Shown: piece by piece, positions 5,227-64,000 of the stretch
How the letters are laid out: the number at the start of each line of letters is the position of its first letter
How positions within the stretch are numbered: position 1 is the stretch's first letter
Source: a virus
IMG/VR virus record: IMGVR_UViG_3300047585_000133
Span: 56,291 to 120,290 of that record
Length of the DNA: 64,000 nucleotides
Strand: one strand, 5' to 3'
Position numbers and translations under genes: made by a program
The notes under the pieces: model-generated
Told to the model about the DNA's origin: nothing
Seen by the model: only the letters and a program-made list of their open reading frames with translations
The model's database searches: none

Positions 5227-6252
5227 TCAGCTTTTCGTGATCGACGCCAGCCCTCTTGGATTGAGCACCGACATAGCGATCATTTCATCGAAGACCCAGC
5301 CCTTCCAGAACGCCTCGACGTTGTGGTTCTCTTCGACATCCAGGCTGTAAAGAATCGGGAAAACTCCGAGGAAGTTGGGTTCGGGAGCCAGGAAGATCTT
5401 CGCCTGGGGCACGATGATGGACCGCTGGATCTGGAACTCGCCGAAGGACGTGATGGTCTCGCCGGCGACCACCCGGTCCTTGAACGCCCATCCGGTTTGG
5501 TTTATATCCCACCGGAACATGTCCCGGTAGTCGAACGGGTTGATCAGGATGCGGGCCGACGGCAGCTCGTGCAGGTCGGTCATGGCGACCGCGCTGTACA
5601 GCGAGCCGGGGGTCAGGTACCCCGACGCCTCGGTGATGTTGTGGTTGGGCGTGACCACGTGGTCCGGGCGGGTGGCGTAGTCGGTGATCGCCGCCTGAAG
5701 CAGGACCAGCAGCCGGGCGTCCTCCTGCTTGAGGATGGCCTGCTTGGTCTCGTCCTGGGCCTGCTCGACGGCGTTGATCCGCAGGTAGAACAGGTCTTCC
5801 TTGCGGATGGCCGGGCGCGACGCGATCCGGAAGAACCGGACCGGGATCCGCTTGCCCTCGAACGGGGTGACCCGGACTTCGCCTTCAGTCCCGGACAGGA
5901 TGTAGGCCTGGCCGAGGTCGTCCCAGACGTCGTACTCCACCGGGGTACCGGGGGTGACCGGGTCCTCCACCAGGACGTTGCGGACGATGCCCTGGTACCG
6001 GAGCTTCAGCTGGATCGGCCCGACCATGCCGACACCCAGGCGCCGGAAGCCGTGCATCTCGTCGGAGAGGATCAGGGCCATCTTCCGGACCTTGGCCTCC
6101 CTCGTAAGAGAGACGCCGTTGGTCCGTGCCCGCCGGGCCTCGATCTGGGCGATGTAGTCGTCGGACTTCCGCGAGGCCACGCGGGGCCGCAGGCCGCCGC
6201 CCGGAGCCAGCGCCAGCTGCCCGCCGGCCGAAGTGGTCGCCAGCTCGTTCAT
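5227..6252 (-). CDS. Putative major capsid protein, HK97-like
   Basis: 341 residues with ATG 6252 after AGGAAAGGG. The length, the position after the protease/scaffold and decoration genes, and the sequence style (helical N-arm with YIAQIEARRART, a long central domain with ARILINPFDYRDMF, a C-terminal LGVFPILYSLDVEENHNVEAFWKG segment resembling the P-domain and A-domain strands of such proteins) all support the call. It would form the icosahedral shell. No motif is diagnostic by eye, so the assignment is from context plus overall resemblance. Confidence 0.7.
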   Translation of the reverse strand: MNELATTSAGGQLALAPGGGLRPRVASRKSDDYIAQIEARRARTNGVSLTREAKVRKMALILSDEMHGFRRLGVGMVGPIQLKLRYQGIVRNVLVEDPVTPGTPVEYDVWDDLGQAYILSGTEGEVRVTPFEGKRIPVRFFRIASRPAIRKEDLFYLRINAVEQAQDETKQAILKQEDARLLVLLQAAITDYATRPDHVVTPNHNITEASGYLTPGSLYSAVAMTDLHELPSARILINPFDYRDMFRWDINQTGWAFKDRVVAGETITSFGEFQIQRSIIVPQAKIFLAPEPNFLGVFPILYSLDVEENHNVEAFWKGWVFDEMIAMSVLNPRGLASITKS

Positions 6253-7185: not shown

Positions 7186-7536
7186 TCATGACAGCGTCGT
7201 CGTGTTAGCGGAGAACAGCGCACTCAGCGCCGTGGCCGGGATCAGCGAGTACTCCGCGTCCGAAAGCACCGCGACGGCGCCGCCGGAGTAGCGGATCCCG
7301 TTGGGCAGCACCACGTTGGACAGGTCCGCCGTGATCGTCACCTGATGACTCACGTCCCCTCCCAGGGAGCCCGTGGAAGTGCCCCCGGCACCCGCCGTCA
7401 GAAGTGCCTTCGCCCCCGCCGTCAGCAGTCCGAACTGATCGTCCGGGAGCGTGAAACCGGCTCCCGCCGCATAGCGGATGCCGTTCGGCATGACAATCGA
7501 GTCGGTGCCGGAGTTGACGACGAGGGAGTAGGTCAT
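7186..7536 (-). CDS. Virion-block protein with an internal two-fold repeat
   Basis: 116 residues; ATG 7536 overlaps the scaffold-gene stop by one base. Residues 10-48 and 70-108 repeat the same pattern: a strand ending (M/L)PNGIRY, then (A/S)GGA-type turn, then LxDxx(F/Y)xLL. Two copies of one small beta domain are therefore fused. The position between the scaffold and capsid genes suggests a capsid-associated role. Confidence 0.65.
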   Translation of the reverse strand: MTYSLVVNSGTDSIVMPNGIRYAAGAGFTLPDDQFGLLTAGAKALLTAGAGGTSTGSLGGDVSHQVTITADLSNVVLPNGIRYSGGAVAVLSDAEYSLIPATALSALFSANTTTLS

Positions 7537-10500: not shown

Positions 10501-11150
10501 GCCGAAGGGTCAGCCGGATCTTCCACCAGCAGGCTGTTCTCGAAGAACGACAGCCCGGCGCAGACCTCGTGGATCAGCTTCTCTTCCAGCTTGCCGGTCG
10601 TCTTGTTCCGCTGCCGGATCTTCTTGCCCTTCAGGGCCGGCAGGTGCTTGCAGTACTCGGCCGGGGAGGTGGCCTTGTTGCCGCAAGCGGAACAGGTGGA
10701 CCAGTCCACGTCCACGCCCATGGAGGTACGGTTGACCCGCCCGGCCAGGACCGCCTTCGCCAGCCTGGGGAACCTGACCGCGTCGACTTCGTGGAGGCCC
10801 TCGACCCAGGTGTCCGGACTGCCGTCGGGGTTCCTGTCGCGGTGCAGGGCGACGGCGACGATGACGCCCCGGGCCCGGCGGTGGTTCTCGTTGTTGTGGT
10901 TGACGAAGACCGGCTTGCCGAGGAAGGTCTTGTAGCCCTTCTCGATCTCGCCGGCCGGGAACGTGTCGTGGTTGTCGTTGGTCCGGCTGGAGATCATCCG
11001 GGACCGCAGGTACAGGTAGCCGGGACGCGGCTCGTAGTCGAATGTCACCCGGTGAGCGGCTTTGACGATCCTCCGGACACCGCTTCCGGGGTTGCCGGGA
11101 ACGGCCTGGCGCCAGGCTTCCAGCACCTCCAGCGACGCGTACTTCCGCAC
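7536..11150 (-). CDS. Capsid protease - zinc-ribbon - scaffold fusion protein
   Basis: 1204 residues from GTG 11150 (GGGAGGAACCC upstream). Residues 1-235 resemble a prohead protease: RTNDNHDTFPAGEIEKGYKTF followed after a few residues by GKPVFVNHNNENHRRARGVI, with conserved His/Asn. Residues 235-760 hold at least five CxxC...CxxC zinc ribbons. A very acidic Pro/Glu/Asp linker follows to about 905. The C-terminal 300 residues, starting MPASKTAAALAQAQARR, are helical and scaffold-like. The gene sits upstream of the capsid gene, where protease and scaffold genes are expected. Prohead proteases are usually 200-250 residues, so this fusion is about five times that size. Catalytic residues cannot be assigned by eye. 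Confidence 0.6.
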   Translation of the reverse strand: MRKYASLEVLEAWRQAVPGNPGSGVRRIVKAAHRVTFDYEPRPGYLYLRSRMISSRTNDNHDTFPAGEIEKGYKTFLGKPVFVNHNNENHRRARGVIVAVALHRDRNPDGSPDTWVEGLHEVDAVRFPRLAKAVLAGRVNRTSMGVDVDWSTCSACGNKATSPAEYCKHLPALKGKKIRQRNKTTGKLEEKLIHEVCAGLSFFENSLLVEDPADPSAFVLGTPDARGMAKAASARTASGEPDFRDYLGNTCRNCGDAVAWTPGNTRHPPRFKHDSARDYDHDPDPVNPQDKSGRMAPSQFGGTHCLFCGDPVRINLHSLSRPGNGWYHEDGMKREGHDPYPADPQKVYDSVPGARAEYDQARSRVEDHMHGLFEQLEGRPLPRSPRGDEHQMPPDPFTASKKTAGVTARPAHCVNCGTEFGSMYTDKKSGSWPHQSMPFLCNDCFYGHMGGAEHTVKGMPVRPMDKGGTQYHPVASDEMDYPEHYETGKIRPWEAGDALKRSQNARSKKPRGRQPKPVRGYGRDPKFDGLALKKDKNGFYVHTHRSRSDSYPTVDDIPDQEIEQIRATGSIGQEGSHCSGCGAQFSGKANPEGKSRSRFIPFLCRDCAPRHAQAPDMNGLAGLPRTRPADVIEGGGRFRQYHPDDHLRQSQNGLQVQAYGETRVPAQVDTLRMDECPVCGEHNVWSGSRCPVCGFVVPPSVFRDPDTSKAGEVRDQLGSAGDVTLPPDAPGAQQPDAQLPAAQVGSGQDADGQLVHPDQIAPDGVPTVQGGDPGETDGQPPDAQEDPLADPSADPGADPEAGEEEQNLEGEGDVPPEDPAGELEDQPGDDLICPACGTTFETDAAAQPGVPCPACGMASLHLIDEEDPGGEAAPPEGAEDPSGDGEEEPEAEQDEEEDKDMPASKTAAALAQAQARRIAELSVQNEVLHAQLSFLASAAGIAPELTEISRRVMRKHADILNPAQPVPDPPEGPPAETTEQALMPGSMDNAGRPGTTPGANAGVPAQMTTTPITPGVEMQTPPATNLVDVTAPVQGTNPSQDGGVPLEQRRIETDVRIDPDPLKAHGPGIGGQGDNGAAFPWILDARGEQGGQPGAQKAASLEADASRRTFASIRLAKMRVQAGLAQGDELAVAEKIEKDASTPTDWIEREISVLSQTPVVQQRQAARPVARTASRSVPSLASVGASASYAPAVMDDLDASDLFD

Positions 11151-13145: not shown

Positions 13146-13374
13146 GGATCAGCCCGGCACTCATCCCACAGCTTCCAGGGTCAACCCAGGCGCCTATGCC
13201 ATCCCAGGCAACAGCAGGCACGATCATCCCCATGCGGGCTGCGAGTGCTTCGACGATCTCGCTGCTCTTCATGCCGGGCGCACCGAGGAACACTCCCCGC
13301 CCCTCGTACGGGTCGGCGGCGGCCATCTGCTCGCGGGTGACCGCTTCCATCCGGTAGCTGCCGAAGATGCTCAC
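13105..13374 (-). CDS. Hypothetical protein, 89 residues
   Basis: GTG 13374 overlaps the stop of the 1363-residue gene as GTGA. The C-terminal 40 bases overlap the next gene in another frame, which is long for this genome, so the true end is less certain. It contains a Gly/Met-rich middle and no known motif. Confidence 0.55.
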   Translation of the reverse strand: MSIFGSYRMEAVTREQMAAADPYEGRGVFLGAPGMKSSEIVEALAARMGMIVPAVAWDGIGAWVDPGSCGMSAGLIRDRWDGGRASERE

Positions 13375-16300
13375 GCGAACATCACGTCGTCGTCGTAGTT
13401 GTCAAGGTTGAGTCCCCTACGCTCAAGTTCACTGTCGGCATCCTCGTAATGCGTGCCCTCCAGGCGCAGCAGGTCCAGGTTCCGGGCCCGCTGCCCGCGT
13501 CCCTCCCGGATCAGGTCGTCGGCTTCCGCTTGCGGCAGCACGTCGGCCGTCTTGGCGAGGTACTCCCTCGCCGCCACCGCGATATCCCCGTCGCCCTGAC
13601 CGGGAGCAGAATCGCCGGTATAGGACCTGGACGCGGCTGACCGCTGGAAGGACGCCACGATATCTTCGATACCTCCCTGCGGCAGCCCGGCCGGGACGTC
13701 CACCTCGTCGGAGTCGGCGCCGCCGCCGGACCACTGCTGGTTCCCGGTCGTCTGAATTGACGGGTCCTCCGGAGACAGGTACTCGTCCTGGGCGCCCATG
13801 CCCGGCTCCTGGGTGACCGGAGAAGGCTGCTGGGCCTGCGGGGAGGTCTCGCGGTTCAGGTCGCCCATCGGGGTGCCTGCGCCCCGCTGGAAGCTGGCCC
13901 CGAACTCGCCGAGCGCAGCGGTATCCAGCGGGGCACCCTGGCCCTGGCCCGTCCCCGCGTCACCGCCGCCGATCGTCCCGTCAGCCGCTGCCGTCGCCTC
14001 GATGTCCTCGCCGGTCGTCTCCGGGAGTGCGGCCTCCGGGTGATCCTTCAGCTCGGCTCTGGATTCTTCCATCCGGATGCCGTTCGGGTCACGCGGGCTG
14101 ATCGCGGTCGACGGACCGGCGGTGTTCGCCCGGTCGGAGTATCCGAAGCTGTCCTGGTTCTCCTGCTGCCATCCCTCAGTAGAAGGCCAGTGCACGTCTC
14201 CCGGTACCGGCTGCTGCGCGGCGGTATTGCTCAGCGGCATCTGAAGGGCGCTGCCGTCCTGGATGCCGCCCCAGTTCTCCGGGTCGGGAGCGGCCAGGAA
14301 GCCGTAGGAGGCCGGGCTCTGGTCCTTGTTGGGCGGGGACGTCGCGCCGTAGGGCTTCTGCGTCGGGTGCTCGGAGACGTTCTGGCTGCCCCAGGAGCTG
14401 TTCGCCTGGTCGGCGGTGACGGCGAAGGACTCGACGGCGCGCAGCGGCACAGGATCGCCCGGCTCCTCGTGCCGGTGCGGGAGGCGGACCGCTGCGCCGT
14501 TGTCGTGCAGCGCCTGGTGGAATGCGTCAGCCGATTCCAGGCTCCCGGTCCGGCGCGCCACCGAATCCTCCGGCAGGCCGTGCGCCACCTGAAGGTGGCG
14601 CGCCATCAGGCCAGTGGAGCGCGCCAGGTCGGCGACGGAGCACATCCCGGCCAAGAGCCGGAGCGCGCCAATCTCGTCCGGGTCTTCTTTGGCGCGCACC
14701 AGCGCGGTAGTGGCACGGTGTGATGGCGCACCACGGGCGATTTCCCATTCGTCGCGCTCCTCCGGAGTCCAGTCCCAGTCGCGTGCCTCATCCGGGGTGG
14801 CGCGGTGCACCATGCTGCTCCGGCGCGCCAGCGGAGCGCGCCACTCCTCGCTCCACCGGCCCCGGTGCGGCGCGCCGTCGTACGGCGGCATCGACTTCAC
14901 CACGACCGAGGACGGCGACCAGGAAGCGGGCTCGGCATCGGAGTCGAAGGACCGGCCGAACATGCCGCGCGACTGAGCCTCGAACTGGAGAGCCATCACG
15001 TGGCTGCACGGGCGGCCGGCGTACCGGCTGCTCGCCGTCTTCTGGTGGAAAGATGCCCAGGGGCACCCGCAGGCCCAGTGAGATATCGTCTGCCGCTTGC
15101 CGACAGGCCGCTGGATGCCGGACTCGTAGGTGTCGTGGTCGCCCCGCACCTCGCCGATCACCATGCCCGCCGAGGCGTGGGTGATCCGGACGTAGCCTTC
15201 GGCCCGGATCCGCTTCGCCTTCGCCACCACGTCGCTCCAGGCGGCGGTGAACTCGAACCGGAAGTCCCGGTTTCCGGCGGCGGCGGTGAACATCGCGAGC
15301 GCCGCGTCCTTGCTGAACGGGGTGTCCTCGTCGCCCTTGCCGGTGTCGTTCGGGTCTGTTCCCGCAGACTGGTCGTTGTCGTCGTCCTGGTCCCCGCCGC
15401 CGCCGCTGTCCCCGTCGTCCGGGGCGAAGGGGGCAGCAGGCGGAGTACCGCGTTTCACTTTCCCGTCGTCGCGGCCCTGGGTCCAGGCGCGGTTCCGCTC
15501 GCTGACCTCTGCCCCGGCGGCGGGCCACTCGTCCGGGTCGGCGGGCGGCATGTCGTCCGGGTTCCCGGGGATCCCGGCCGGGGGGATATCCGCCGGATTG
15601 TCCTCTTCGCCGTCCCCGATGGCCTGCGGGGAGTCGTTACCGGGGCCTGCTTCGTCCTCGTCGCCGTCCTCGTCGCCGTCCAGGTCGTTGCCCGGGTCGT
15701 CGTGCTCGTGGGCGGGAGCCGGGCTGTCGTCTTCACTGCCATGATTATGGTCGTGCACGTGCACGTGCACGTTGAGCGCCGACATCATCCGGCGGAACCG
15801 CGCCGGGTCGGTCTGCTGGTACACGGCCGGGTCCGGGGCCGGCTTCACTCTCCTCAGCCGGTCCATGGCGCGGGCAGGGTCTTTCGACGAGCCGCCGTGC
15901 TCCGGGGCCACGATGGGATATCCCTCGGGGGTACGCATGCGCGGGGTACTGAAGATCGACGGGCCGAACATGTTGCTCAGCGATTCCTCGCGGTCCGGAC
16001 CCTGCTCGTCTTCCGGCTCGGTGTGGCTGTGGTTCGCCATCCCGGCGTCGTGCATGCCCTGGTGCAGGTCCTGGATCCGGTCCCCGTGCGCCCGGATCCG
16101 GTTGAACTGCGTCTCGCCCCAGCCGTGGCCGTCGCGCATGTGGTCTTCCCACTGGCTGTCGGCCGATGCCTCCACCGGGCCGATGCCCTCTCCCTGCGCC
16201 TCTTTCATCCGTTCTTCCACCTGGGACCTCGGCGGAGTATTGCGGCCGAGGAACTCCCCCGACGGCACGAAATCGCCCTCGGTGATACCGGGCGGGACCG

Positions 16301-17462
16301 TCTGCCAGCTGTGCAGGTGCTCGCGCTGCGGCCCGGTCCACGGCACCCGGGCTCCGGTGAACTGGTGGGAGCTGCTGGCGTCGTCTCCGAGGTCCCAGTG
16401 CGGGTCGAAGTCGTACTCGTCGGGATGGCCGTGGCCGACGTCGCCGTAGGCGTGCTGGGCGTCGTGGTCTTCCGACAGCATCCGCCGCTGGGCATCGCTC
16501 ATACCGGGAGTCTGGGGCGGGAAGCCGTGCTCTTCCTCCATGTGCCGGGGCAGGTTGTCCAGTGCTGCGGTGAAGGCGCCGATCTCCAGTCCGGGGCCGC
16601 CGCCGGCTGACATTCCCTCGGGGTACATGCCGACGGTGGCGGCGTTCTCGTTCTTCTTGTCGCCGTGCTGCGACTTCGGCAGCGCCTGGTTCCATCTGGG
16701 GTCGCCGTCACCCTCGGTGGAACGGTCATCGTAGGAGTCCGGGTCGCCGGCACGCGGGACAGTGCCGTGCTGCGGGGCGTCGCCGTGGCCGTCGATGTTC
16801 GTGCCGTTGATGTCGGTGGCATGACGGCGGGAGCCAAGGTACTGCCCGCTGGCATCGTCGCCGTGCTCCCACAGAGGGTCAAGTTCTCCCTCATGCTGGT
16901 GATCGGCGTCCCCGCTGTCGTGCAGCTGGTCGTGCGCGTGCGCCATGGTGAACTGCCAGGACGGATCACGGTGGTTGGCGCGGTCGAATATCTCTTTACC
17001 GTGGTCCTCCACCAGGTGGCGCTTCAGGGCCAGGTACTCAGCGCTCGACCCGGTTACGCTGATCGCCGTGGCATGGTGGCGCATGCCGACCAGTCCGGCA
17101 GCTTCCTCCATCTCGGCGAGCCGCGCCATCACCGGGCTTGTCATCCACGGCGGGGGCGGTGCCTCCTGCTGGGGTCCGAGGTGCTCTTCCGTCCAGTCCT
17201 GCTCGGCGGGCTCGGCCCAGTCCATGCCGGTGTCGCCTTCGCCGCCGTTGTACCCGCCGTTGCGGGGGTCTTCCTCGGTGCCGTAGGCGGCGGCGGTCTT
17301 CGACCCGATGACGGTGATCTGGCTGCCTGGATCGGGCCGGTCAGACAGGATGCTGCCCATCTCCGGGTAGTCATGAGCCGCTGTGCGGTGCTGCTGCTCC
17401 TGCTCGTCCTCAGGCTCGTCGTCGTTGAGCTGGGACAGCCTGGTGCTGTGCTTCCGGATCAT
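13371..17462 (-). CDS. Giant protein with His modules and a SWIM zinc finger
   Basis: 1363 residues; ATG 17462 has GGGAGG upstream, while the open frame further 5' lacks one. It contains four copies of an H-x4-H-G...H-x3-H module (in HLVEDHG, HMEEEHG, HMRDGHG and HLQVAHG contexts), usually followed by HxH-E. Near the centre HWACGCPWASF...GRPCSHVMAL matches a SWIM finger (CxC...CxH). Long acidic, Pro-rich linkers separate the domains. The position between portal and capsid protease genes suggests a virion protein; SWIM fingers bind DNA or protein. No enzyme motif was found. Confidence 0.6.
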   Translation of the reverse strand: MIRKHSTRLSQLNDDEPEDEQEQQHRTAAHDYPEMGSILSDRPDPGSQITVIGSKTAAAYGTEEDPRNGGYNGGEGDTGMDWAEPAEQDWTEEHLGPQQEAPPPPWMTSPVMARLAEMEEAAGLVGMRHHATAISVTGSSAEYLALKRHLVEDHGKEIFDRANHRDPSWQFTMAHAHDQLHDSGDADHQHEGELDPLWEHGDDASGQYLGSRRHATDINGTNIDGHGDAPQHGTVPRAGDPDSYDDRSTEGDGDPRWNQALPKSQHGDKKNENAATVGMYPEGMSAGGGPGLEIGAFTAALDNLPRHMEEEHGFPPQTPGMSDAQRRMLSEDHDAQHAYGDVGHGHPDEYDFDPHWDLGDDASSSHQFTGARVPWTGPQREHLHSWQTVPPGITEGDFVPSGEFLGRNTPPRSQVEERMKEAQGEGIGPVEASADSQWEDHMRDGHGWGETQFNRIRAHGDRIQDLHQGMHDAGMANHSHTEPEDEQGPDREESLSNMFGPSIFSTPRMRTPEGYPIVAPEHGGSSKDPARAMDRLRRVKPAPDPAVYQQTDPARFRRMMSALNVHVHVHDHNHGSEDDSPAPAHEHDDPGNDLDGDEDGDEDEAGPGNDSPQAIGDGEEDNPADIPPAGIPGNPDDMPPADPDEWPAAGAEVSERNRAWTQGRDDGKVKRGTPPAAPFAPDDGDSGGGGDQDDDNDQSAGTDPNDTGKGDEDTPFSKDAALAMFTAAAGNRDFRFEFTAAWSDVVAKAKRIRAEGYVRITHASAGMVIGEVRGDHDTYESGIQRPVGKRQTISHWACGCPWASFHQKTASSRYAGRPCSHVMALQFEAQSRGMFGRSFDSDAEPASWSPSSVVVKSMPPYDGAPHRGRWSEEWRAPLARRSSMVHRATPDEARDWDWTPEERDEWEIARGAPSHRATTALVRAKEDPDEIGALRLLAGMCSVADLARSTGLMARHLQVAHGLPEDSVARRTGSLESADAFHQALHDNGAAVRLPHRHEEPGDPVPLRAVESFAVTADQANSSWGSQNVSEHPTQKPYGATSPPNKDQSPASYGFLAAPDPENWGGIQDGSALQMPLSNTAAQQPVPGDVHWPSTEGWQQENQDSFGYSDRANTAGPSTAISPRDPNGIRMEESRAELKDHPEAALPETTGEDIEATAAADGTIGGGDAGTGQGQGAPLDTAALGEFGASFQRGAGTPMGDLNRETSPQAQQPSPVTQEPGMGAQDEYLSPEDPSIQTTGNQQWSGGGADSDEVDVPAGLPQGGIEDIVASFQRSAASRSYTGDSAPGQGDGDIAVAAREYLAKTADVLPQAEADDLIREGRGQRARNLDLLRLEGTHYEDADSELERRGLNLDNYDDDVMFA

Positions 17463-17502
17463 TGCCGCCTCCCTTACTTCTTCCCTGGAACGGCCGGAAG
17501 CG

Positions 17503-17531
17503 TTGAGGAATACAGCTTTTATTGATATTGT
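17503..17531 (+). promoter_or_regulatory. Leaderless promoter for the 17538 gene
   Basis: TTGAGG (17503-17508), 17-bp spacer with the dispersed element (AATACAGCTTTTATTGA), then TATTGT (17526-17531) and only 6 nt to ATG 17538. This is one of the clearest promoter copies in the window. Confidence 0.7.
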
Positions 17532-17537
17532 CCTGTC

Positions 17538-17777
17538 ATGACGCCGATTAACGAGGCCCAGATCCGCGAAGACCACTACGACGAGGACATCCTGGAGATC
17601 TACGAGAACGCCGGGGTGCTGGCGTCCGACCAGGACCAGGTCACCTTCATCACCGACAGCGAAGGCAAGCGCGTCTTCGCGATCGTCCCCGTCGAGTTCG
17701 CCGAGCACGCACTAGACCGGGAGGACGTGGCGACCTTCGCGGCCCGCGCCGGGCTCCTGAGCCGCAGGCTCAGGTGA
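17538..17777 (+). CDS. Small acidic protein, possible antitoxin-like fold, leaderless
   Basis: 79 residues, start set by a promoter ending 6 nt upstream. The central part (VTFITDSEGKRVFAIVPVEFAEHAL) resembles the strand-helix of Phd/YefM antitoxins, where an AIVP.EeY segment follows a short beta hairpin. No toxin gene is adjacent, so this is only a resemblance. It overlaps the next gene by 4 bases. Confidence 0.6.
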   Translation: MTPINEAQIREDHYDEDILEIYENAGVLASDQDQVTFITDSEGKRVFAIVPVEFAEHALDREDVATFAARAGLLSRRLR

Positions 17778-25352: not shown

Positions 25353-27620
25353 TCAGCCCCCGGCCGGGGTGTACTTCTCGTAGTCGGCCAGGTGACCGTC
25401 TTCCTCGGTCACTCCCAGCCGGGCGCGCATCCCCACGTGCGGCGGATCCTGGTAGGCGCGGATCGACGGCCCGGACATCCATCCGCCCTTGCCGTCCTTC
25501 GCTTCCACTTCGGAGTCCGGCAGGTGGGCTTCGAGGACGAAGCCTTCGCCGCCGGACGACGCGGCTACTCCTTCCAGGGGCGCTTCGTCCACTGCGCGGG
25601 CGAGGGCGGCCATCTTCCTGACCCGGTCGGCCCGGCGGAACAGCGCGCCCTGCTTCGGCATGCCGCGCTTGCCTGCTTTCGGCATGGACCCGCGCTGCTC
25701 GTCGGACTCCGGCGGGCGCTGCGGGTCAGCGTCTTGCTCAGCCGTCTCGCCTTCCGGCGGGGCGTTGAGCGGGCCGCCCGTCTGGGCGTCCATCTCGTCG
25801 GCCATCTGCTGGTCCTCGGGGGTGGGCGCGAGGTCGGGCAGCGGGAGGGGGGAAGCGCCCATCCGGTCGATCATCATGGCCTGGCCCGCTACGGCCGGGG
25901 GCACGCCTTCCACCTGGGCGACCGGAGCGAAGTCGGCCATGAGGTCGGCGGGGACCGGCAGTCCCTGGTTGCGGAGTTCGACGAACGCCTGGCGGCGGGT
26001 ACGGGCCTGGGCGATGATGTCGGCTACCGCCTCGTCCTGGGACCGTTCGCGTTCCTCGTCCAGCTCGATGCCGAGGCCCCGGGTCCGGGTGCGGGCGGAG
26101 ATCGGGATGCCGCTGGCGCGAAGGGCCTCGGTGAACTGGCGGGTGGTGTCCTCGTCCCGGAAGTTCAGCACCTGGCAGGTCAGGTCGGGCACCAGGAGTT
26201 TCGGCTGCTCGGTGATGCGCTTCTCGCCGGTCTCCTCGTCGGTTTCGAGGACTTCCTCCATGATCACGAAGCGGCGGCCGTTGCGTTCCTCGTAGTCGTA
26301 GTGCTCCTGTGCTTCGGCGACGATGAGCATCCGCTGCCTGATGTGCCGCTTCAGCATCTTCTGGTAGCTGGTCATCAGCTGCTCGACCAGCTGCTTGTTG
26401 AGGGCGTCGGCGGCGTAGGTCTGGCCTTCTCCGGCTCCGGTGAGGAATGTGCGCGAAAGTCCGAAAACTTGCAGGACGCGGTCTTCGATGCGTTCGAAGT
26501 CCATGCTCAGGTCGGGCATGTTCTCCCGGCCGAAGACGGACTCCAGCTCGACGGCGAAGTTGTGGATCAGCACCCGGAAGTCCCCGGCGAGGGCGGCGTC
26601 CATGGCCATCTCGAAGTTTTCGAGGTCGTCGTCGGTGGGGATCCACGGGACCGACGTGCCGAGGTCGGTGGCGCTGGCACCGAGTTTGGCCAGCAGCAGC
26701 GGGGTGTAGAGCCGGTCGGCGATCGAGTCCAGGGCGGTGTTGAGCATCTCCTGCTGGAGCATCGAGCGCATCGCCCGGGTCAGCAGCGGCAGCCCTCTCA
26801 GGTTGAAGGTGTCGCCCTTGAACTTGAGCTGCCGCAGCAGGATGTTGCTGACCGGCATGAAAGCGTTCTCGGCCGTGTAGGCGGCCAGCTCCGGGTACTC
26901 CTGGACGAGCTTGTTATATTCCCAGGCGGGCTGGCGGGTGGTGAGGATCTGCCGGATCGTCCACGGCAGCCGGGTGAAGTACCGGGGTTCCTTCAGGAAC
27001 GGGCTGCGCTCGACCTTGATGTCGTCGGAGTTGAGCAGCTCCTCGTCGTCCCAGATTCCCAGGTCCTCGTTGAAGGTGGCGAACGGCCACGCCTCGCCCG
27101 TGATGTAGTACTCGCGGCCGATGTCGACGAGGAATTCCGAGTAGTCCAGGCCGTCGTCGCCGAAGAACAGGTCCTCGTAGAACTCCGTCAGCCGCTGGTC
27201 TTTGCATTCGAGCTTGGCGCCGACAACAGGGAACTTGGAGAAGATGTCGATGCAGGAGCCGACGATCGGGTCCGTCTGGTAAAGGAGTCGGCAAAAGGCT
27301 CTGACCTTAGCCAGTTCCTCGTTCTGGCTGAAGTCGTAGGGAAGGTTGTTCTGGCGCCAGTAGAAGAGCGGGTCTCTGGGCCTGCCTGTAGCAAACTGGA
27401 TGTCGCTGAACCCCGACCCGCCGGCTCCGCCCGTCGAGTAGCCCGTACGGCGGCCGACCGAGGCGGTACGTGCGTTGGCCCGGCGGTTCTTACGGGCCTC
27501 CAGCACTTCGGGGGACATCTGCTCGGCGGAGGCCGCCCCGATGCCCATGGTGCGGCCGAGCTGACGGGCGACCGAAGCCTGCCGTGCAGCACCCGACCCC
27601 GGCTGGTACGCGACCCTCAT
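25353..27620 (-). CDS. Portal protein
   Basis: 755 residues; ATG 27620 follows AGGAGGT by 9 nt, so it is preferred to the TTG at 27626. The fold signature is a long acidic/aromatic N-terminal half, then LPWTIRQILTT, a central ALDSIADRLYTPLLL helix, and FGLSRTFLTGAGEGQTYAA followed by a helix-rich stem (QLMTSYQKMLKRHIRQRM). This run is characteristic of large phage portal proteins, which form the 12-fold DNA entry ring. The C-terminal 150 residues are acidic and Pro-rich. No terminase gene is in the window. Confidence 0.8.
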   Translation of the reverse strand: MRVAYQPGSGAARQASVARQLGRTMGIGAASAEQMSPEVLEARKNRRANARTASVGRRTGYSTGGAGGSGFSDIQFATGRPRDPLFYWRQNNLPYDFSQNEELAKVRAFCRLLYQTDPIVGSCIDIFSKFPVVGAKLECKDQRLTEFYEDLFFGDDGLDYSEFLVDIGREYYITGEAWPFATFNEDLGIWDDEELLNSDDIKVERSPFLKEPRYFTRLPWTIRQILTTRQPAWEYNKLVQEYPELAAYTAENAFMPVSNILLRQLKFKGDTFNLRGLPLLTRAMRSMLQQEMLNTALDSIADRLYTPLLLAKLGASATDLGTSVPWIPTDDDLENFEMAMDAALAGDFRVLIHNFAVELESVFGRENMPDLSMDFERIEDRVLQVFGLSRTFLTGAGEGQTYAADALNKQLVEQLMTSYQKMLKRHIRQRMLIVAEAQEHYDYEERNGRRFVIMEEVLETDEETGEKRITEQPKLLVPDLTCQVLNFRDEDTTRQFTEALRASGIPISARTRTRGLGIELDEERERSQDEAVADIIAQARTRRQAFVELRNQGLPVPADLMADFAPVAQVEGVPPAVAGQAMMIDRMGASPLPLPDLAPTPEDQQMADEMDAQTGGPLNAPPEGETAEQDADPQRPPESDEQRGSMPKAGKRGMPKQGALFRRADRVRKMAALARAVDEAPLEGVAASSGGEGFVLEAHLPDSEVEAKDGKGGWMSGPSIRAYQDPPHVGMRARLGVTEEDGHLADYEKYTPAGG

Positions 27621-27668
27621 CCGCAATGACCTCCTGCCCCTTCCGGGGGAGGAGGTCTTGAGACTAAA

Positions 27669-54082: not shown

Positions 54083-55114
54083 CTACAGGGCGGCCAGCTC
54101 CGCGACGTCGGCGATATCCCCGAGGCCGCCTGCCGCACCGGAAGCTCCCCCGCCGCCTTCGCCGCCGCCCAGGCCGGGCATGATCATCGACCGGATCCCC
54201 TGGCCTTCCAGGACGTGCGCGGCGGCGCCGCCCCCTCCGCCGCCGGACCCCGATCCCCCGCCGCCTCCGCCGCCCATCGGGCCGTTGCCGATCGCCGAGT
54301 CGTTGAGGTCGGCCGCCCGCAGGTAACGGGACACCACCTTGCGGCCCAGCCGCTCGCACTCGGCCGCCGGCAGCCCCGGGTTCGCCTCCGCGATCATCGC
54401 GGTCACCCGCAGGATCTTCGAGCGTACGGGGTCGAGGCTGCCCGTGGTGACCCCGGGGCGGCCGGTCGCCTGTCCTACCGGAGCCGTGTTGCCGCCCGGC
54501 TGGGGCCCGGCGGAGACGCTCGGGGACATGCTGTTGGAGTCCGGAGTCGGCAGCCCCACGTCCACCGAGCCGTTGCCCAGTCCGGCGTCCGGCGGGGTGT
54601 ACGGGCTCATCATCGACGCACCGGGATCGTCAGAGGCCTGCCGGCGCAGCGACCCGGTAGCCTGGCTGACCGGGGCTGCCGCCTCCTGCCTGGGCTGGGT
54701 GACCGCCGGGTCAGGCCCGGACAGGTTTCCCATCGGGACCTCCGAGTAGCCGTGACTGAAATCCGGGCCCTCGTCGTGCTCCAGGGGCTCTTCGGGGCCC
54801 TGGCCGTAGCCGCCGCCGTTCAGCAGCGGCTCCAGCGAGATAAGCGGGTCTTCCCCCTCGGCCAGGGCCTCGCGGTACAGCTCGTAGCGGCGCCGGGCGG
54901 TCGCCTCGATGTCGTCCGCCTCTACCCCGGCGCGGGCCGCGATCAGCATGACGGAAGAGTTTGCCGTCGCCAGCCGGTGCCCGAACTCCTCCGGACTCCG
55001 CGAGGCGAGCAGGAACGGCATCAGGCTATCCATCTCGGCTTCGGCACGGGCGAGTGCCGCTTCCCTCGCGAAGTGCTCGTGGTCGCCGGAGGCGGCCTCC
55101 CACAGGTCGTCCAC
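54083..55114 (-). CDS. Hypothetical virion-type protein, 343 residues
   Basis: GTG 55114 overlaps the upstream stop by one base (TAGTG). N-terminal helical half (EHFAREAALARAEAEMDSLM), a Pro/Ser/Gly-rich central linker, a helical segment (NPGLPAAECERLGRKVVSRY), and a Gly-rich tail (MGGGGGGGSGSGGGG). Large low-complexity linkers are common in the minus-strand virion genes of this window. Role unknown. Confidence 0.55.
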   Translation of the reverse strand: MDDLWEAASGDHEHFAREAALARAEAEMDSLMPFLLASRSPEEFGHRLATANSSVMLIAARAGVEADDIEATARRRYELYREALAEGEDPLISLEPLLNGGGYGQGPEEPLEHDEGPDFSHGYSEVPMGNLSGPDPAVTQPRQEAAAPVSQATGSLRRQASDDPGASMMSPYTPPDAGLGNGSVDVGLPTPDSNSMSPSVSAGPQPGGNTAPVGQATGRPGVTTGSLDPVRSKILRVTAMIAEANPGLPAAECERLGRKVVSRYLRAADLNDSAIGNGPMGGGGGGGSGSGGGGGGAAAHVLEGQGIRSMIMPGLGGGEGGGGASGAAGGLGDIADVAELAAL

Positions 55115-56739
55115 TACTGCGCTCCCATCTTCGCCAGATTGGCCTGCACCGTATGCCGGAAAGCCGCCAGGCGGTCGTTGCCGCGCGGGTCTCCCCGGTA
55201 GGCGTCCTTGTTGCTGTACTCGCCGTGGTCGGCTTTGTTCTCGGCTGCGGGTGCCAGTATGGCATTCTCCGGGTGCATCCCCGAGTAGGTCTGCACCGTC
55301 GGGCCGTCCGGCTGCGGCTGCTGCTGCGGCCGGCCCATCACGTCGTCGGGGACAACAGGACCGCCGGGCAGCGGCGGGGCACCCTGGTAAGGGGAAGCGC
55401 CTCCCGCCTGAGCCGGGTCCGACAGGCCGCCCATCGGCGGCGGGGCGCCGGGACCGTTGAGCGGGGTCGCGCCCATCGGGTCCGGCGAGGTACCCGGTCC
55501 GTCGGTAATCAGGTCCGTGGAAGTTCCGGCCTGGCGGACCAGGTACATGGACGTGCCGTGACCGTACCCGCCCGTCTGCTTGCGGGTAAACGACTGGTGC
55601 AGTCCGATCCGGCGGATCAGGCCCCTGTGCCTGCCGCCCTGAACGGCATGGGCATGCGTCCACGCTTCCTGGATCTCCGGCCGGTCGGTGATCCCCGCGT
55701 ACAGCCCGGCCTCGAACTTCGCCGAACCCTGGGCGACCAGCCGCTGGCCCGGCCGCCACTTCAAGGCAAAGAGGTACGCCCGCCTGAACTCCGGGTCCCT
55801 CATCAGCGAGTCAGGGGCGAACGCAGCCGATACCCGCCTCAGCGACGCGGTGTGCTTCGACGCGCGGGCCACCTGGAAGGACCGCTGCGCCTCCTGGGCG
55901 TTCTGCGCCTGGCCCGAGTCCCCGCCCATCGAGCGGGGCACGTCCTGCGGACCCTGCGGGGACCGGGCCTGGCCGTACCCCTGGGCGTAGCCCTTCACGT
56001 ACGGGCTGACCCCGGAGGAGTTGTCGGCGAACAGGGGCCGCTCCCCCGCCGACCTGTCCGACTGGCCGGCGCTCATGCCCGCCTGGTAGTCGCCGCCCTC
56101 GTTCTGCGACCAGGGATCCGGGGACGTCTCCGGGGTATTGTACGGCGGGTTAGTGTCGTCGGTGGTCTGGTGCGGCGGCGTCCAGGTGTCGGCTTCGCGG
56201 CGCATCGCAGTGGCCTGGCCGCCGCTGTCACCGTGGTACAGGACGCTGGAGTCCGCGTTCATTTTCCGTCCCTGGGCGTAGGCCGCCAGGTACTGCGGGT
56301 GCAGGTCGCCGCGCCCGGTCTGCCGGTCGTACTCCTGCTGCGTCATCGCCGCGCGGCCGACCGCACCGTGCATCAGCCCGGCCGTCTCGTTCCAGGCCTG
56401 GAGGTAGCGGCCGTGCTGGATGGGGTTGTACGGGAACTTGTCCTGGTGCTGCGGGCTGTCGCCCCGGGCCGCCGCCGCCTGGCCGAGGGCCTCGGCATCG
56501 CCCGGGGGAAGCTGGGCCCTGGCTCCGGTGCGCGGCTGCGGGCCGTCCGGCCCGGTCGACCACTGCTGGCCGAACGTGGAGCCGGGCGCGTTGTCCCCGA
56601 GCGGGAACGCCACGCCGTCGGGCAGCTCGTCGTCCTCGGGGACGGCTTTGTTGTTCGGGTCGGTCACCTGCTGGATCTGCGGCAGGCCGCTGGCTCCCTG
56701 AAAGAGGAAGTGGCCCTGGGGGAGGATCCCGGTTGTCAC
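55114..56739 (-). CDS. Hypothetical virion-type protein, 541 residues
   Basis: GTG 56739 follows the upstream stop by 8 bases. Contains QGASGLPQIQQVTDPNN near the N-terminus, shared with the next protein upstream, and YQAGMSAGQSD, which resembles YQRGWNAGQ of the 29044 product. Mid-region is Pro/Gln/Asp-rich; an Arg-rich helical domain (EIQEAWTHAHAVQGGRH) comes later. No family is recognised. Confidence 0.55.
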   Translation of the reverse strand: MTTGILPQGHFLFQGASGLPQIQQVTDPNNKAVPEDDELPDGVAFPLGDNAPGSTFGQQWSTGPDGPQPRTGARAQLPPGDAEALGQAAAARGDSPQHQDKFPYNPIQHGRYLQAWNETAGLMHGAVGRAAMTQQEYDRQTGRGDLHPQYLAAYAQGRKMNADSSVLYHGDSGGQATAMRREADTWTPPHQTTDDTNPPYNTPETSPDPWSQNEGGDYQAGMSAGQSDRSAGERPLFADNSSGVSPYVKGYAQGYGQARSPQGPQDVPRSMGGDSGQAQNAQEAQRSFQVARASKHTASLRRVSAAFAPDSLMRDPEFRRAYLFALKWRPGQRLVAQGSAKFEAGLYAGITDRPEIQEAWTHAHAVQGGRHRGLIRRIGLHQSFTRKQTGGYGHGTSMYLVRQAGTSTDLITDGPGTSPDPMGATPLNGPGAPPPMGGLSDPAQAGGASPYQGAPPLPGGPVVPDDVMGRPQQQPQPDGPTVQTYSGMHPENAILAPAAENKADHGEYSNKDAYRGDPRGNDRLAAFRHTVQANLAKMGAQ

Positions 56740-56746
56740 GGCTCGC

Positions 56747-58264
56747 CTACTTCCCGACGGGGGCGACGTGGTATTCCTTCGCCATCTGGTCGATGTAGTT
56801 GACCACCTTGGCATGCGGCTCGTTCGTGCGGCCGATGTCGTGCTTGGCGTTCTCCACGTCGGCCGGGCCGCTCACCGGGAACTTGTCGTCAGTGCCGGGC
56901 AGGTGGTGGCTGGCGTTCTCCCGCTCGGATTCGGTGACGCCTCCGGCCGCCAGGCCTCTCGCGGCGGTCCGGCCGCGCCCGTTAGGGTGCTTGGCGCAGC
57001 CGCAGCCGCTGTCGGTGCAGTGCGCGCAGTCGCCGCCCTTGCACGCGGTGCACGACAGGTCGGCCAGGACGGGCCGCACGACGGCCATGAAGCCGTGCAG
57101 GACGGCAGTGTCGTCGAGGGTACGGTCACTGCGCCCCCAGGCGGCCGTGAAGCGGTTGTGGGCCTTCCCCAGCTCCGCCAGGGACGACGAGCCGGTCACC
57201 GCCCGCAGGCCCTCCCTGACGCCCACTGCCTCGCAGGCGGCAGCCCGGCGGGCACTCTCGATGTTCATCAGGTACCCGACGGCCACCGAGGCGGTATGAC
57301 TGCGGTCGCCGCAGGACTCTTCCGGCCAGTGGCTGCTGCCGCACCGTTCGTGGAACGGGTGCATAACCTCGGACTGCATCGCCCAGCGGTAGCCGAACGG
57401 GTCCGGTACCGAGTACCCGGCGACGGCGGCGGCGTGCCGCCGGTCGGCTCCGGCGTCCTGCGGCACCCCGGCGACCGGGTTGGGGGCGCTGGATCCCGTG
57501 GAATCGGTTGCGGCCGGAGCCGTGGGAATCGTGCCGGGCGGTCCCAGCGGAATTTCGGCGTAGGAGTCGGCGGTGTCGAACTGCGTGGTGTGCGAGTCGG
57601 GCCGTTCCGGTCCGCTGCCGAACCCGGATCCGCTGTTCTCCTGCTGCATCACCTGCTGGATCAGCGGTGCCTGGGCAGAGGAGGCCTGGGAGTCGCGGTC
57701 GAATCCCTCCACCTGGTTGAACGGGTCCTGGTCGGCGCCGAAAGTCGGGAAGACCTCGGTGGGGTACGGGGTGGCCGACGGGGCATTGTTCGGGTCCACC
57801 GTCTGGTCGATCTGCGGCAGCCCTGAGGCCCCCTGGCGCGAGTGCAGGTAGGCCACCACGCTCATGAACTCGTTGCGCGCCGCGCCCATTTTCAGCCCGT
57901 AGCCGGAGGCGAGGCTGCGCGCCCGGCCGTCGGCCTGGGCGGCTAGCTCGTCAGTGTCGGAACGGACGGCCGGGTCGAGGCCCCGGTACCAGAGCGAGGC
58001 CTCGGCGATCATCGCGGTGCGGTAGTCACCGGAGGGGATATCGGCATCGCCCAGCCAGTCGGTGGCGGCGGTGTGGTGCTCGTGGACCGGCACGGGGGTC
58101 AGCCGCTGGGCGGCGATTCTCGCTCCGAGGTCGGTCTCGCGGTCAAGGCCGGCTGCCGTCGTGCGGCTGCGGTCGTACTCGTCGAGGGCCGCGACTGCCT
58201 GCGCGAGTTCGGTGCCGTTGGACGCCTCGCGGATCATGCGCCGCAGGTCATTCCGGTCTGTCAT
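56747..58264 (-). CDS. Hypothetical virion-type protein, 505 residues
   Basis: ATG 58264 has CAGGGAGGGCTG upstream. The N-terminal 130 residues are helical. QGASGLPQIDQTVDPNN recurs from the adjacent gene. A Cys-rich cluster (CGSSHWPEESCGDRS and SCTACKGGDCAHCTDSGCGC) near the C-terminus could bind zinc. Role unknown. Confidence 0.55.
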   Translation of the reverse strand: MTDRNDLRRMIREASNGTELAQAVAALDEYDRSRTTAAGLDRETDLGARIAAQRLTPVPVHEHHTAATDWLGDADIPSGDYRTAMIAEASLWYRGLDPAVRSDTDELAAQADGRARSLASGYGLKMGAARNEFMSVVAYLHSRQGASGLPQIDQTVDPNNAPSATPYPTEVFPTFGADQDPFNQVEGFDRDSQASSAQAPLIQQVMQQENSGSGFGSGPERPDSHTTQFDTADSYAEIPLGPPGTIPTAPAATDSTGSSAPNPVAGVPQDAGADRRHAAAVAGYSVPDPFGYRWAMQSEVMHPFHERCGSSHWPEESCGDRSHTASVAVGYLMNIESARRAAACEAVGVREGLRAVTGSSSLAELGKAHNRFTAAWGRSDRTLDDTAVLHGFMAVVRPVLADLSCTACKGGDCAHCTDSGCGCAKHPNGRGRTAARGLAAGGVTESERENASHHLPGTDDKFPVSGPADVENAKHDIGRTNEPHAKVVNYIDQMAKEYHVAPVGK

Positions 58265-58339
58265 CAGCCCTCCCTGGGTTCCTGTCCCTTCTGCGGCCAG
58301 GTCACGGAAAGGATTCAAGGAACTGTAACGGGAGGGTAA

Positions 58340-59740: not shown

Positions 59741-59758
59741 GTTCACCTCCGGAAACAG

Positions 59759-59793
59759 CGAACCGGGCAAGCGTAGAGGGCTCGCCCGGTTCG
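59759..59793 (-). promoter_or_regulatory. Hairpin in the glycosylase leader
   Basis: CGAACCGGGC (59759-59768) and GCCCGGTTCG (59784-59793), 10-bp perfect stem, 15-nt loop, in the leader between the promoter at 59863 and the start at 59740. It has no U-run, so a structural role in RNA is more likely than termination. Confidence 0.5.
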
Positions 59794-61507: not shown

Positions 61508-61811
61508 CGAACGCCGCAATCCAGTGGCTCTGGACCGTGCGCCCGCCTTCCCGCGCACCGAGGCCCTCCCACGAGGGCAGCGTCTCGCCGTGCACCGACT
61601 GACCGTCCGCATGAGCCCGGTAGCGCTCGTACCCGTACCGGGCCTGGGCTTCGACGTGCTCCGGATTCTCCGCCAGGAGACGTCCGAGCTGCCCCCAGAA
61701 CGAGGCGGCATGGCTCTCGTGCTCGGTCACCTCGTTGGTGACCGGGCCGTAGGTGGTGCGCACCTTGATATTCTGCGGCTCGCGCTCGTCACGCATGGCT
61801 GTCAGGGTCAT
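61500..61811 (-). CDS. Hypothetical protein, 103 residues
   Basis: ATG 61811 follows CAGGAGGACCAG, inside the end of the upstream gene by 23 bases. Helix-rich, Trp- and His-containing (AENPEHVEAQARYGYERYRA). Function unknown. Confidence 0.6.
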   Translation of the reverse strand: MTLTAMRDEREPQNIKVRTTYGPVTNEVTEHESHAASFWGQLGRLLAENPEHVEAQARYGYERYRAHADGQSVHGETLPSWEGLGAREGGRTVQSHWIAAFGG

Positions 61812-64000
61812 TCTGGTCCTCCTGGTCTGATCTTCTTGACGAAATACTCTTAGGCTCCCTGGGCTTCCTGCTGGTGTAAGTCATGTCCGTCATGCCGAGC
61901 TGCATTGCATTCCACACCCGGTGATGACCGTCCATCAGCGTGCGCTCACCTTTGTGCGTCTTGATCCACAAAGGCGTGCGCTGCCCGTTTTCCGCCATAT
62001 CGTCTTGAAGATCATAGACTTTTGACCTCCCGGCGTCTTCGTCCCAGTGGGTAGCCCGCCTCAGGTTACCGTCTCTCCGCTGGAGCACGTCAGCAACCGT
62101 CCCTCCGCCCGGCGAGTCAGCGGACCTCAGCTTAAGGATCTCCTCGATCGGCATTACCGGGCCGCTATTCTTAGCCGCCGTGTGCAGGCTGATTCCAAAC
62201 GGGAAGCTCCGCACGTCGTCCCCGCGCTTCACGTGCAGGTGCGTGAAGCTCACCGGCACCTTCGGGTGCTGCTCCGGAACCGCTTCGCCCTCCTCCAGGT
62301 ACGCCAGGGTGACGTGCGGCGTGTAGTTCTTGAACTCGCTCGCGTTCAGGTCCTCCACTGCGTGCCGGACGGCTGACAGGCCCCGGACGAACGCAGGCAC
62401 GTACGCCACCGTCTTGTTATCGCTGCCCTCGCTCGGCGGGAACGTCCGCGTCCCCTCCAGGTGGCCGCTCAGCGGCGGCGACTGGGAGGCGGCCTCCTTC
62501 GCCCGGCGGCAGGCCTCGGCGAACGTTTCGTCATCCACGTCCTTGCCGAGGTAGCAAATTGTCACATGATGGTCGTCGACCCCGCCGGGTACCGGCCGCA
62601 CGGCACCCGGCGGGAGTTCCAGGTAGATCATCCCCGAACGCGGCGACAGGTCGTAGCCCTTGGCGGCCGTCCTCGCAGAATGCACCGGAGCACCAGGCGA
62701 CATCCCGCATTCACCGCAGGCGTAGTTGCCTGTGTCAGCGAACTGGTGCGGCCTCTTCTGCTTCTCGTACAGACTCTGGTTCTGCTCGCGAACCTGGCGC
62801 TGCCGTTCGTCCTGCGCTTCGTGGATCTCCTGCCGGGGCAGCTCCCGGCCCACCAGCATCGGCCCCCTGGTACGGAACGCACTCGGCAGCTTGTCCACCG
62901 GATCAGGTTCCATGTCCCCTGCGGGGTGTACCTCGAAAACACGGCCAGGACCCCGCCCGGGACGGGCGTGTTCCTGGCCGGCGGCGAGCTGCCAGGCGCG
63001 CAGCTTGTCGGTCGAGGCGTAGGAGTGATCGGGACTCGAAGCATCCCATTCGCCCCTGGTGCCGCGCGAAGACGGCGAGGTGACGTATTCGCCCGGGGCA
63101 AACGGATGCTGAGTCCCGTGGTACCAGGGGCCGTCTTCGGCTGCCGCCTCGCGTCCGGTCAGGCCGTCGTAGCCGCTGACGGCATGCCGACGGCTGTACT
63201 GGTTTTCGCGCTGCTGCTCGATCTCTTCCTGCGACATGTGCCAGGAGTTCAAGTCCTGCGGCCACTCATGCCGGGGCACCTCCCGGACCACGTGCAGCGG
63301 GTGGCTGGTCATCCACGACGCATTGCCCCGGACGATTCCGTTAGCGGTCTCGTCAGGCTTCACCGGGCCCGTCGGGTGCACCTGGTACAGGTGGCCCTCA
63401 GATCCTCCGCGCAGCTCGGCCATATGCCCGGCCAGGCTCGGGTCGGTGGTGGCGTAGAGCGGGGAGTTCTCCCTGAAGTCGTCGCGGTCCGGGTACTTCT
63501 TCCAGTAGTGGTGCTCGATCTGGTCGCCAGGCTCGTACTGGTCAGCGGTGCCGTGGTAATAAGCAGGACCGGCCGCCGCCTCGCGGTGGGTGCCGTCGTC
63601 AGCCGCCGCCGTGCGCCACGGGGACTTCTCGCGGGCCTTCAGCTGCTCGTTTTCCTCATCCCTGAACCAGGGCTTGCGTGCTTCTGCCGCCGCGTCGTAA
63701 TCAGCCTGATTGTCGTAGTCACCGACCGGCAGGTGCAGGCCGAGGTCCCAGGCAGCTGCCGCCCGGTGGTGCCCGTCCATCATCTGCGGCCTCTTCAGGG
63801 GACGGCCGCCCCGGGTGAACCGGGCCAGCGCCGGAGCCTCCACGCCGTGCTCAGCGACGTGGGCGCGCAGCTTCTCCCAGTACTCCGGCCCGTTCTTCTT
63901 AAAGTGCTTCACCAGGGAGGGGAGAGTCTTCACCGGGTAGTCGGGGTACTCGTACTTCCCGTACTCCTCCGGCGGCACCATCCTGATGGTGGTACCCGAG
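61789..64000 (-). CDS. ParB-ART-ART-2H phosphoesterase-ParB polyprotein, cut by right edge
   Basis: Open to base 64000, so the true start is outside; residues are counted here from the ATG at 63981 (730 residues). Order: a ParB/sulfiredoxin-like unit with MMDGHHRAAAAW (69-73 region); an Arr-type ADP-ribosyltransferase unit (YYHGTADQYEPGDQI, YATTD, LYQVHPTGPV, about 141-233); a second such unit (WYHGTQHPFAPGEYV, YASTD, VFEVHPAGDM, about 286-380); a short CGECG stretch near 422; a 2H phosphoesterase with HVTI (472) and HVTL (556); and a second ParB-like unit with MDGHHRVWNA (684-688). The Arr family transfers ADP-ribose from NAD; 2H enzymes open cyclic phosphates or cleave nucleotide esters. 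Substrates are unknown. Confidence 0.7.
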   Translation of the reverse strand, partial: SGTTIRMVPPEEYGKYEYPDYPVKTLPSLVKHFKKNGPEYWEKLRAHVAEHGVEAPALARFTRGGRPLKRPQMMDGHHRAAAAWDLGLHLPVGDYDNQADYDAAAEARKPWFRDEENEQLKAREKSPWRTAAADDGTHREAAAGPAYYHGTADQYEPGDQIEHHYWKKYPDRDDFRENSPLYATTDPSLAGHMAELRGGSEGHLYQVHPTGPVKPDETANGIVRGNASWMTSHPLHVVREVPRHEWPQDLNSWHMSQEEIEQQRENQYSRRHAVSGYDGLTGREAAAEDGPWYHGTQHPFAPGEYVTSPSSRGTRGEWDASSPDHSYASTDKLRAWQLAAGQEHARPGRGPGRVFEVHPAGDMEPDPVDKLPSAFRTRGPMLVGRELPRQEIHEAQDERQRQVREQNQSLYEKQKRPHQFADTGNYACGECGMSPGAPVHSARTAAKGYDLSPRSGMIYLELPPGAVRPVPGGVDDHHVTICYLGKDVDDETFAEACRRAKEAASQSPPLSGHLEGTRTFPPSEGSDNKTVAYVPAFVRGLSAVRHAVEDLNASEFKNYTPHVTLAYLEEGEAVPEQHPKVPVSFTHLHVKRGDDVRSFPFGISLHTAAKNSGPVMPIEEILKLRSADSPGGGTVADVLQRRDGNLRRATHWDEDAGRSKVYDLQDDMAENGQRTPLWIKTHKGERTLMDGHHRVWNAMQLGMTDMTYTSRKPREPKSISSRRSDQEDQNDPDSHA

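Follow-up and report, generated by a model that had tools for sequence, protein, structure and literature searches.

This locus raises the question of why a phage would join two units resembling the rifampin ADP-ribosyltransferase (ART) Arr, a 2H phosphoesterase, and ParB-like units in one polypeptide. The stretch that we analyzed, referred to here as the window, is 64,000 nucleotides long. It covers positions 56291-120290 of the 120,290-base record IMGVR_UViG_3300047585_000133, that is, its last 64 kb, and the end of the window is the end of the contig. The protein in question lies at that end:

61789..63999, minus strand: C-terminal part of a putatively head-associated polyprotein, 736 amino acids, with the 5' end cut by the contig end

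The preliminary description had proposed a single intact frame. We confirmed this: the minus-strand frame runs through 61789-63999 without interruption and encodes 736 residues, in the unit order ParB/sulfiredoxin (Srx), Arr, Arr, 2H, ParB-like. A frame split by a sequencing error is excluded by the one open frame, its coding base composition, and the occurrence of the same domains in single frames of relatives. At its 5' end the ORF has no boundary and runs off the record, and its first residues align, at about 50% identity, to a 2805-residue ORF of the closest relative, IMGVR_UViG_3300031823_000001, starting from residue 1413 of that ORF. Thus, translation does not begin at the ATG at 63981, and the record lacks much of the protein. 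We regard this truncation and the domain identities given below as practically certain. A tblastn search of the window protein against 50,697 phage records gave no match, and PADLOC reported nothing for it. For structure prediction, the domains were folded separately and not as the full-length protein. The units are as follows:

63625..63999, minus strand: ParB/sulfiredoxin-fold unit 1, residues 1-125, with DGHHR (AlphaFold2, Foldseek, hhalign)
63265..63567, minus strand: Arr-like ADP-ribosyltransferase 1, residues 145-245, H-Y-D triad kept (Pfam Arr-ms, alignments, profile to ARR-2 2e-15)
63154..63183, minus strand: AVSGYDGLTG, residues 273-282, apparent relict of the N terminus of a 2H module
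62815..63138, minus strand: Arr-like ADP-ribosyltransferase 2, residues 288-395, H-Y-D triad kept (second Pfam Arr-ms stretch, alignment to 2hw2)
62188..62652, minus strand: 2H phosphoesterase, residues 450-604, with both HxT motifs (Pfam, Foldseek)
61864..62172, minus strand: ParB-like unit 2, residues 610-712, with DGHHR (weak PHROG matches)

Both Arr-like units that had been proposed are present. Pfam Arr-ms matched the window protein twice (1.5e-13, 51.2 bits against a curated cut-off of 25), unit 1 aligned to the solved structure of ARR-2 and unit 2 to that of Arr, and a profile of the phage Arr units matched ARR-2 at 2e-15. The rifampin ARTs ARR-2 and Arr are the closest solved relatives. 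The suggested comparison of both units with Arr showed that the catalytic residues H19, Y49, and D84 (2hw2 chain numbering, from the alignment) are kept in unit 2 and, by family alignment, in unit 1 (alignments to 9iba and 2hw2 and within the family). The phage units have the fold and catalytic triad of Arr and ARR-2. They differ in being embedded in a polyprotein and in scoring far below the NCBIfam rifampin_ARR equivalog cut-off (41.7 bits against 130), which places them in the Arr superfamily but not among the rifampin ART equivalogs.

One possible role is virion-delivered resistance to chemical defense, in which the Arr units would act not on macromolecules but on antiphage metabolites of the actinobacterial host, rifamycin-like or other, and inactivate them. 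The kinship with ARR-2 and Arr and the intact triad are in its favor, and the multiple divergent Arr copies of each phage would be in keeping with multiple small substrates. However, the low equivalog score argues against it, and, by motif reading only, the same proteins contain further ART-like units that do not resemble Arr. We consider this possibility quite unlikely. It concerns the target only and is compatible with packaging of the protein in the virion.

The HVTI/HVTL pair had been read as a 2H phosphoesterase, and both Pfam (2_5_RNA_ligase2, 9e-9; LigT_PEase, 5e-7) and structure comparison agree. The predicted fold matched a bacterial 2',3'-cyclic phosphodiesterase in Foldseek at 5.9e-8, with LigT next, and both HxT motifs are invariant in 17 sequences. 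The fold and the two motifs are common to the LigT/ThpR phosphoesterases and Acb1. However, the phage unit is fused to other domains or to portals and falls below the family-specific cut-offs; the LigT/ThpR equivalog TIGR02258 gave 25.2 bits against 65.7. Identity with the anti-CBASS protein Acb1 was rejected (Pfam Acb1, 18.5 bits against a cut-off of 27). The peptide AVSGYDGLTG between the two Arr units matches HREAVSGYDGLTGRS(G/A)M ahead of the 2H domain in L048 and L049, where the 2H module that begins with these residues is intact. Thus, a 2H module between the Arr units has probably been replaced by an Arr unit.

The same 2H module, at about 55% identity, is fused behind the portal domain in approximately 18 of the 44 viral ORFs examined, some of which also have NUDIX and one a DGHHR unit. 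Portals of other, unrelated actinophage-like contigs carry the module C-terminally (L053-L055, L057, L058, L062, L064, L066, L067, L071, L073-L076, and L079); NUDIX occurs in some of these 2H-bearing portal proteins, and L066 is the one with the DGHHR unit.

Two ParB-like units had also been claimed, and DGHHR is found in both. The claim is firm for unit 1, for which the AlphaFold2 model is confident (pLDDT mostly 70-97) and Foldseek gave matches to Noc, ParB, and Srx with probabilities of 0.9-1.0, though with E values of about 0.007-0.1. Sequence support for unit 1 is moderate, with an hhalign probability of 95.9% to the ParB-like units of relatives. For unit 2 there were weak PHROG matches to DNA-binding, ParB-like, and methyltransferase families and, because homologs are too few, no confident model; we call this C-terminal unit ParB-like with reserve.

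We then asked what kind of phage carries this protein and where the gene lies. The phage falls within a group of uncultured soil phages with kinship to Ceeclamvirinae (Bxz1, Myrna). Among cultured phages, the nearest are Ceeclamvirinae Mycobacterium phages, Gordonia phages Stormageddon and Skog, and Rhodococcus phage Finch, with about 39% portal identity. With the portal as query, IMG/VR yielded 59 relatives; genomes related to this phage are frequent among metagenome records, and they include more than 200 cultured Mycobacterium, Gordonia, and Rhodococcus records. The portal, head protease, and major head protein are encoded on the same strand as the polyprotein, and in relatives the polyprotein array lies just upstream of the head-gene block. 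The relevant genes of the window are as follows:

5227..6252, minus strand: major head protein (PHROG 1.7e-98)
7536..11150, minus strand: ORF with an N-terminal head maturation protease domain (residues 23-219) and RTAS just after it, at residues 235-238
13371..17708, minus strand: large head-region ORF with an RTAA site
25353..27626, minus strand: portal protein with RTAS at residues 53-56 (PHROG portal 7e-144)
55114..56814, minus strand: conserved ORF with an HTAS site
56747..58318, minus strand: conserved ORF downstream of the polyprotein, with HTAA and HTAS sites, kept in relatives

The RTAS, RTAA, and related sites in these genes resemble a linker of the form [RH][TE]AA (RTAA, REAA, or HTAA), which stands at all domain junctions of the window protein:

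63604..63615, minus strand: linker RTAA, residues 129-132, a predicted site of cleavage; pLDDT of the surrounding segment below 50
63574..63585, minus strand: linker REAA, residues 139-142
63142..63153, minus strand: linker REAA, residues 283-286
62662..62673, minus strand: linker RTAA, residues 443-446
62173..62184, minus strand: linker HTAA, residues 606-609

The motif [RKH]TA[ASG] is enriched 10- to 20-fold in polyproteins and head proteins and not elsewhere. For this phage (G000), [RH]TA[AS] occurred 12 times against 0.6 expected by shuffling in eight head and polyprotein ORFs, a set chosen by homology and position to which the small ORF 29044-30048 was added after the motif had been seen (11 occurrences without it), and 3 times against 3.2 in the 144 other ORFs. 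The corresponding counts for G001 were 15 against 0.9 in head proteins and polyproteins and 1 against 1.3 in other ORFs. Across 17 polyproteins, [RKH][TEQ]A[ASV] was found 84 times against 14.7, while permuted motifs stayed near chance. These shuffles and permuted-motif controls exclude the explanation that the linkers arise by chance in an Ala/Arg-rich proteome. Furthermore, local alignments between polyproteins tend to end at the motif (107 ends, against 43 for rotated positions and a maximum of 70 in 500 rotations).

The pattern extends to cultured phages. In the head proteins of Myrna, Rabinovish, Finch, and Stormageddon, the most enriched tripeptides include RTA or KTA, and in Rabinovish, a cultured M. 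smegmatis phage, [RKH]TA[ASG] occurs 17 times against 1.1 in eight head proteins and polyproteins and 2 times against 2.8 in 47 tail and other proteins. In most close relatives, an (R)RTA core is found near portal residues 45-65, directly ahead of the conserved body, with some variation in its position; the core is absent from the more distant portals L166, L167, and L169-171. The site that follows the protease domain is RTAS in this phage and KTAG in Rabinovish, with looser versions in Finch and Stormageddon and no clear site in the Myrna protease. The major head protein has no linker-type site.

In giant phages of the SPN3US/phiKZ type, the prohead protease recognizes a short motif and cuts at it in the portal N terminus, in its own C-terminal tail, and in ejected head proteins (PMC10052503). 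Because the motif described here occurs at the same places, namely the portal N terminus, the protease tail, and the polyproteins, we infer that it is the head-protease site of this phage group. Its enrichment in known head proteins over chance is what would be expected of a prohead-protease substrate. The motif differs from that of SPN3US, and here cleavage would also separate the enzyme domains of one cargo protein. The shared linker peptide suggests that the polyprotein is cut within the head and delivered into the bacterium as infection begins; the enzymes may thus be released singly and not work as the one enzyme that the preliminary description had proposed, which would both write and process nucleotide marks.

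The explanation that best fits these data, and that we consider fairly likely, is a head-packaged "polyvalent protein" that is cut by the head maturation protease at the linkers and then injected. That the window protein is a virion protein is very probable; that cleavage occurs at the linkers is probable, judging from motif position and enrichment. The polyprotein would be produced late, together with the head proteins, and enter the prohead, where the phage's own head maturation protease would cut it at the R/K/H-T/E-A-A linkers between domains. The same protease probably cuts the portal N terminus and also itself, behind the catalytic domain. Once released, the Arr-like ADP-ribosyltransferases, the 2H phosphoesterase, and the ParB/Srx-fold units would be carried into the cell along with the DNA and would be active during the first minutes, placing ADP-ribose on host molecules and disarming nucleotide-based or chemical defenses. 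The missing sites in the major head protein, the more distant portals, and the Myrna protease count against this explanation. Of the earlier claim of virion delivery or host takeover, delivery is well supported by the adjoining head genes, the linkers common to head proteins, and the 2H-portal fusions, while any particular target is tentative and rather doubtful. Many phages with 2H-portal fusions have KAA-type linkers ahead of the 2H module instead of RTAA. This is suggestive only and would fit a linker that follows each phage's own protease.

The same evidence bears on two other explanations. It is possible that the protein is a late intracellular array for host takeover or against competitors that never enters the virion. 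Stand-alone Arr-family ARTs of other actinophages have indeed been interpreted as antibiotic-modifying or resistance enzymes or as anti-immune enzymes (PMC9503650). However, linkers common to head proteins, a location upstream of the head cluster, and a 2H module fused to portals do not fit well with such an array, and we consider it very unlikely. Alternatively, the polyvalent protein could be packaged in the head uncut, or be cut only by a metallopeptidase-like domain of its own, with the linkers serving as flexible tethers or being footprints of recombination. The N4 virion RNA polymerase enters the virion without being cut, and self-cleavage has been proposed for P1 DdrB (PMC5512222). HEAAH segments that look metallopeptidase-like by eye are present in the polyproteins of G003 and G005 and could cut instead, and the relict 2H fragment between the Arr units shows that a module was replaced close to a linker. 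Module shuffling could likewise produce a repeated linker, or the linker could be a docking tag. However, the motif is enriched as well in proteins that are no shuffled arrays, namely the portal, the protease ORF, and other head proteins, and likewise in the head proteins of Rabinovish. Therefore, we consider an uncut or self-cut protein unlikely, and we continue with cleavage by the head protease as the preferred reading.

Seven related records encode polyproteins of 830-2805 residues. Pfam detected up to four Arr-ms and two 2H domains in one protein, and NUDIX, GNAT, and ParB_N in several; by eye only, we also noted further ART-like units of other types (HWS/HWT...E-x-E) and nucleotidyltransferase-like units. 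The domain arrangement across the polyproteins is mosaic. They contain a set of uncharacterized Arr-type ADP-ribosyltransferases outside the antibiotic-resistance setting. A second repeat, roughly [DGP]-[LV]-[LVFM]-x-H-F-[GEA], occurs up to seven times in the upstream polyproteins, often just before a new domain:

G001, 106136-118181: polyprotein with the H-F repeat
G003, 102946-108651: polyprotein with the H-F repeat
G004, 62121-66125: polyprotein with the H-F repeat
G007, G008, and G009: polyproteins with the H-F repeat

Examined as a second site in the form [LV]xHF[GEA], this repeat was confined to the upstream polyproteins and absent from head structural proteins. It could be a packaging tag or another site.

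Small versions of the polyprotein are found in cultured M. smegmatis phages, as Rabinovish gp80 and Myrna gp78. We read Rabinovish gp80 as a ParB-like unit, LRTAAV, an ART-like unit, HARTAGT, and a GNAT-like unit. These proteins differ in having two or three units only and no Arr unit. With Rabinovish gp80, the main claim is directly testable in a cultured phage. Myrna gp78 (L012:12830-14263, PHROG 2579) is annotated as "ParB C-terminal domain" and reads as two ART-like units (YRGM...HWTT...EQEINL), which makes the annotation appear doubtful. ART profile support was not found for Myrna gp78, and a search against PDB sequences gave nothing useful.

The preliminary description knew of no described fusion with this order. 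Polyvalent proteins of phages and conjugative elements, as presented by Iyer et al. (2017, PMC5512222), are giant proteins with 2-15 unrelated enzyme domains, among which ART is the commonest modifying enzyme and ParB-like and 2H domains occur; they are encoded near head genes and are predicted to be injected. Iyer et al. suggested that the 2H domains are RNases or degraders of defense nucleotides (PMC5512222). The window protein, with two Arr units and a 2H unit of unrelated activity joined to ParB/Srx in one polypeptide, and more domains in relatives, is of this kind: a multienzyme chain with ART, ParB-like, and 2H domains near head genes. Thus, the claim of novelty has to be narrowed: the multienzyme kind was described in 2017, and it is the Arr-rich order that we did not find described. 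The ARTs of PMC5512222 belong to the Tox-ART-HYD2 clade, and no linker common to head proteins was found in the passages considered, whereas here Arr-family ARTs dominate, in actinophages related to Ceeclamvirinae, and such a linker is present. Phage T4 Alt likewise transfers ADP-ribose and is presumed to travel in the head and be injected, but it is a single R-S-E enzyme, while the units here are of the Arr-type H-Y-D kind and stand in an array. A literature search, with most subscription journals outside its range, found no description of the Arr-rich architecture, of its presence in this actinophage group, or of the cleavage-motif linker; the architecture and the shared linker look new.

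A head-processed strategy, in which injected enzymes are made as one or two giant chains and cut by the capsid-maturing protease at a common R/K/H-T/E-A-A linker, is plausible and slightly favored. If so, modules could swap freely so long as each carries the linker, and one virion would hold several Arr-type and other ART-like enzymes with 2H, NUDIX, GNAT, and ParB-fold units. One gene, one cleavage tag, and the capsid protease as scissors would then explain the loading of many early-acting enzymes, and the tag would list the injected enzymes of the whole phage group from sequence alone.

Several other features of these genomes were observed. In the block after the polyprotein, a minus-strand ORF at 59159-59770 of the window resembles a family 4 uracil-DNA glycosylase (TIGR00758, 2e-32, just under the cut-off), and G003 has an ORF similar to it (GREMVRGHGP). 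An HNH/NUMOD4 homing endonuclease gene (L026:11575-12210, in G004) lies between two polyprotein ORFs and possibly splits them. Directly after the second G001 polyprotein, at 118421-119704 (L010:6422-7702), is a gene for an AAA ATPase with a BCS1_N-like region. The portal genes of the more distant relatives L174, L176, L177, L179, and L181 have a large in-frame insert right after RAFC that is intein-like (CEPPQTKIWMADLSF...GDVVVGWE). The portal genes of L172, L173, and L178 have long inserts too, at other places.
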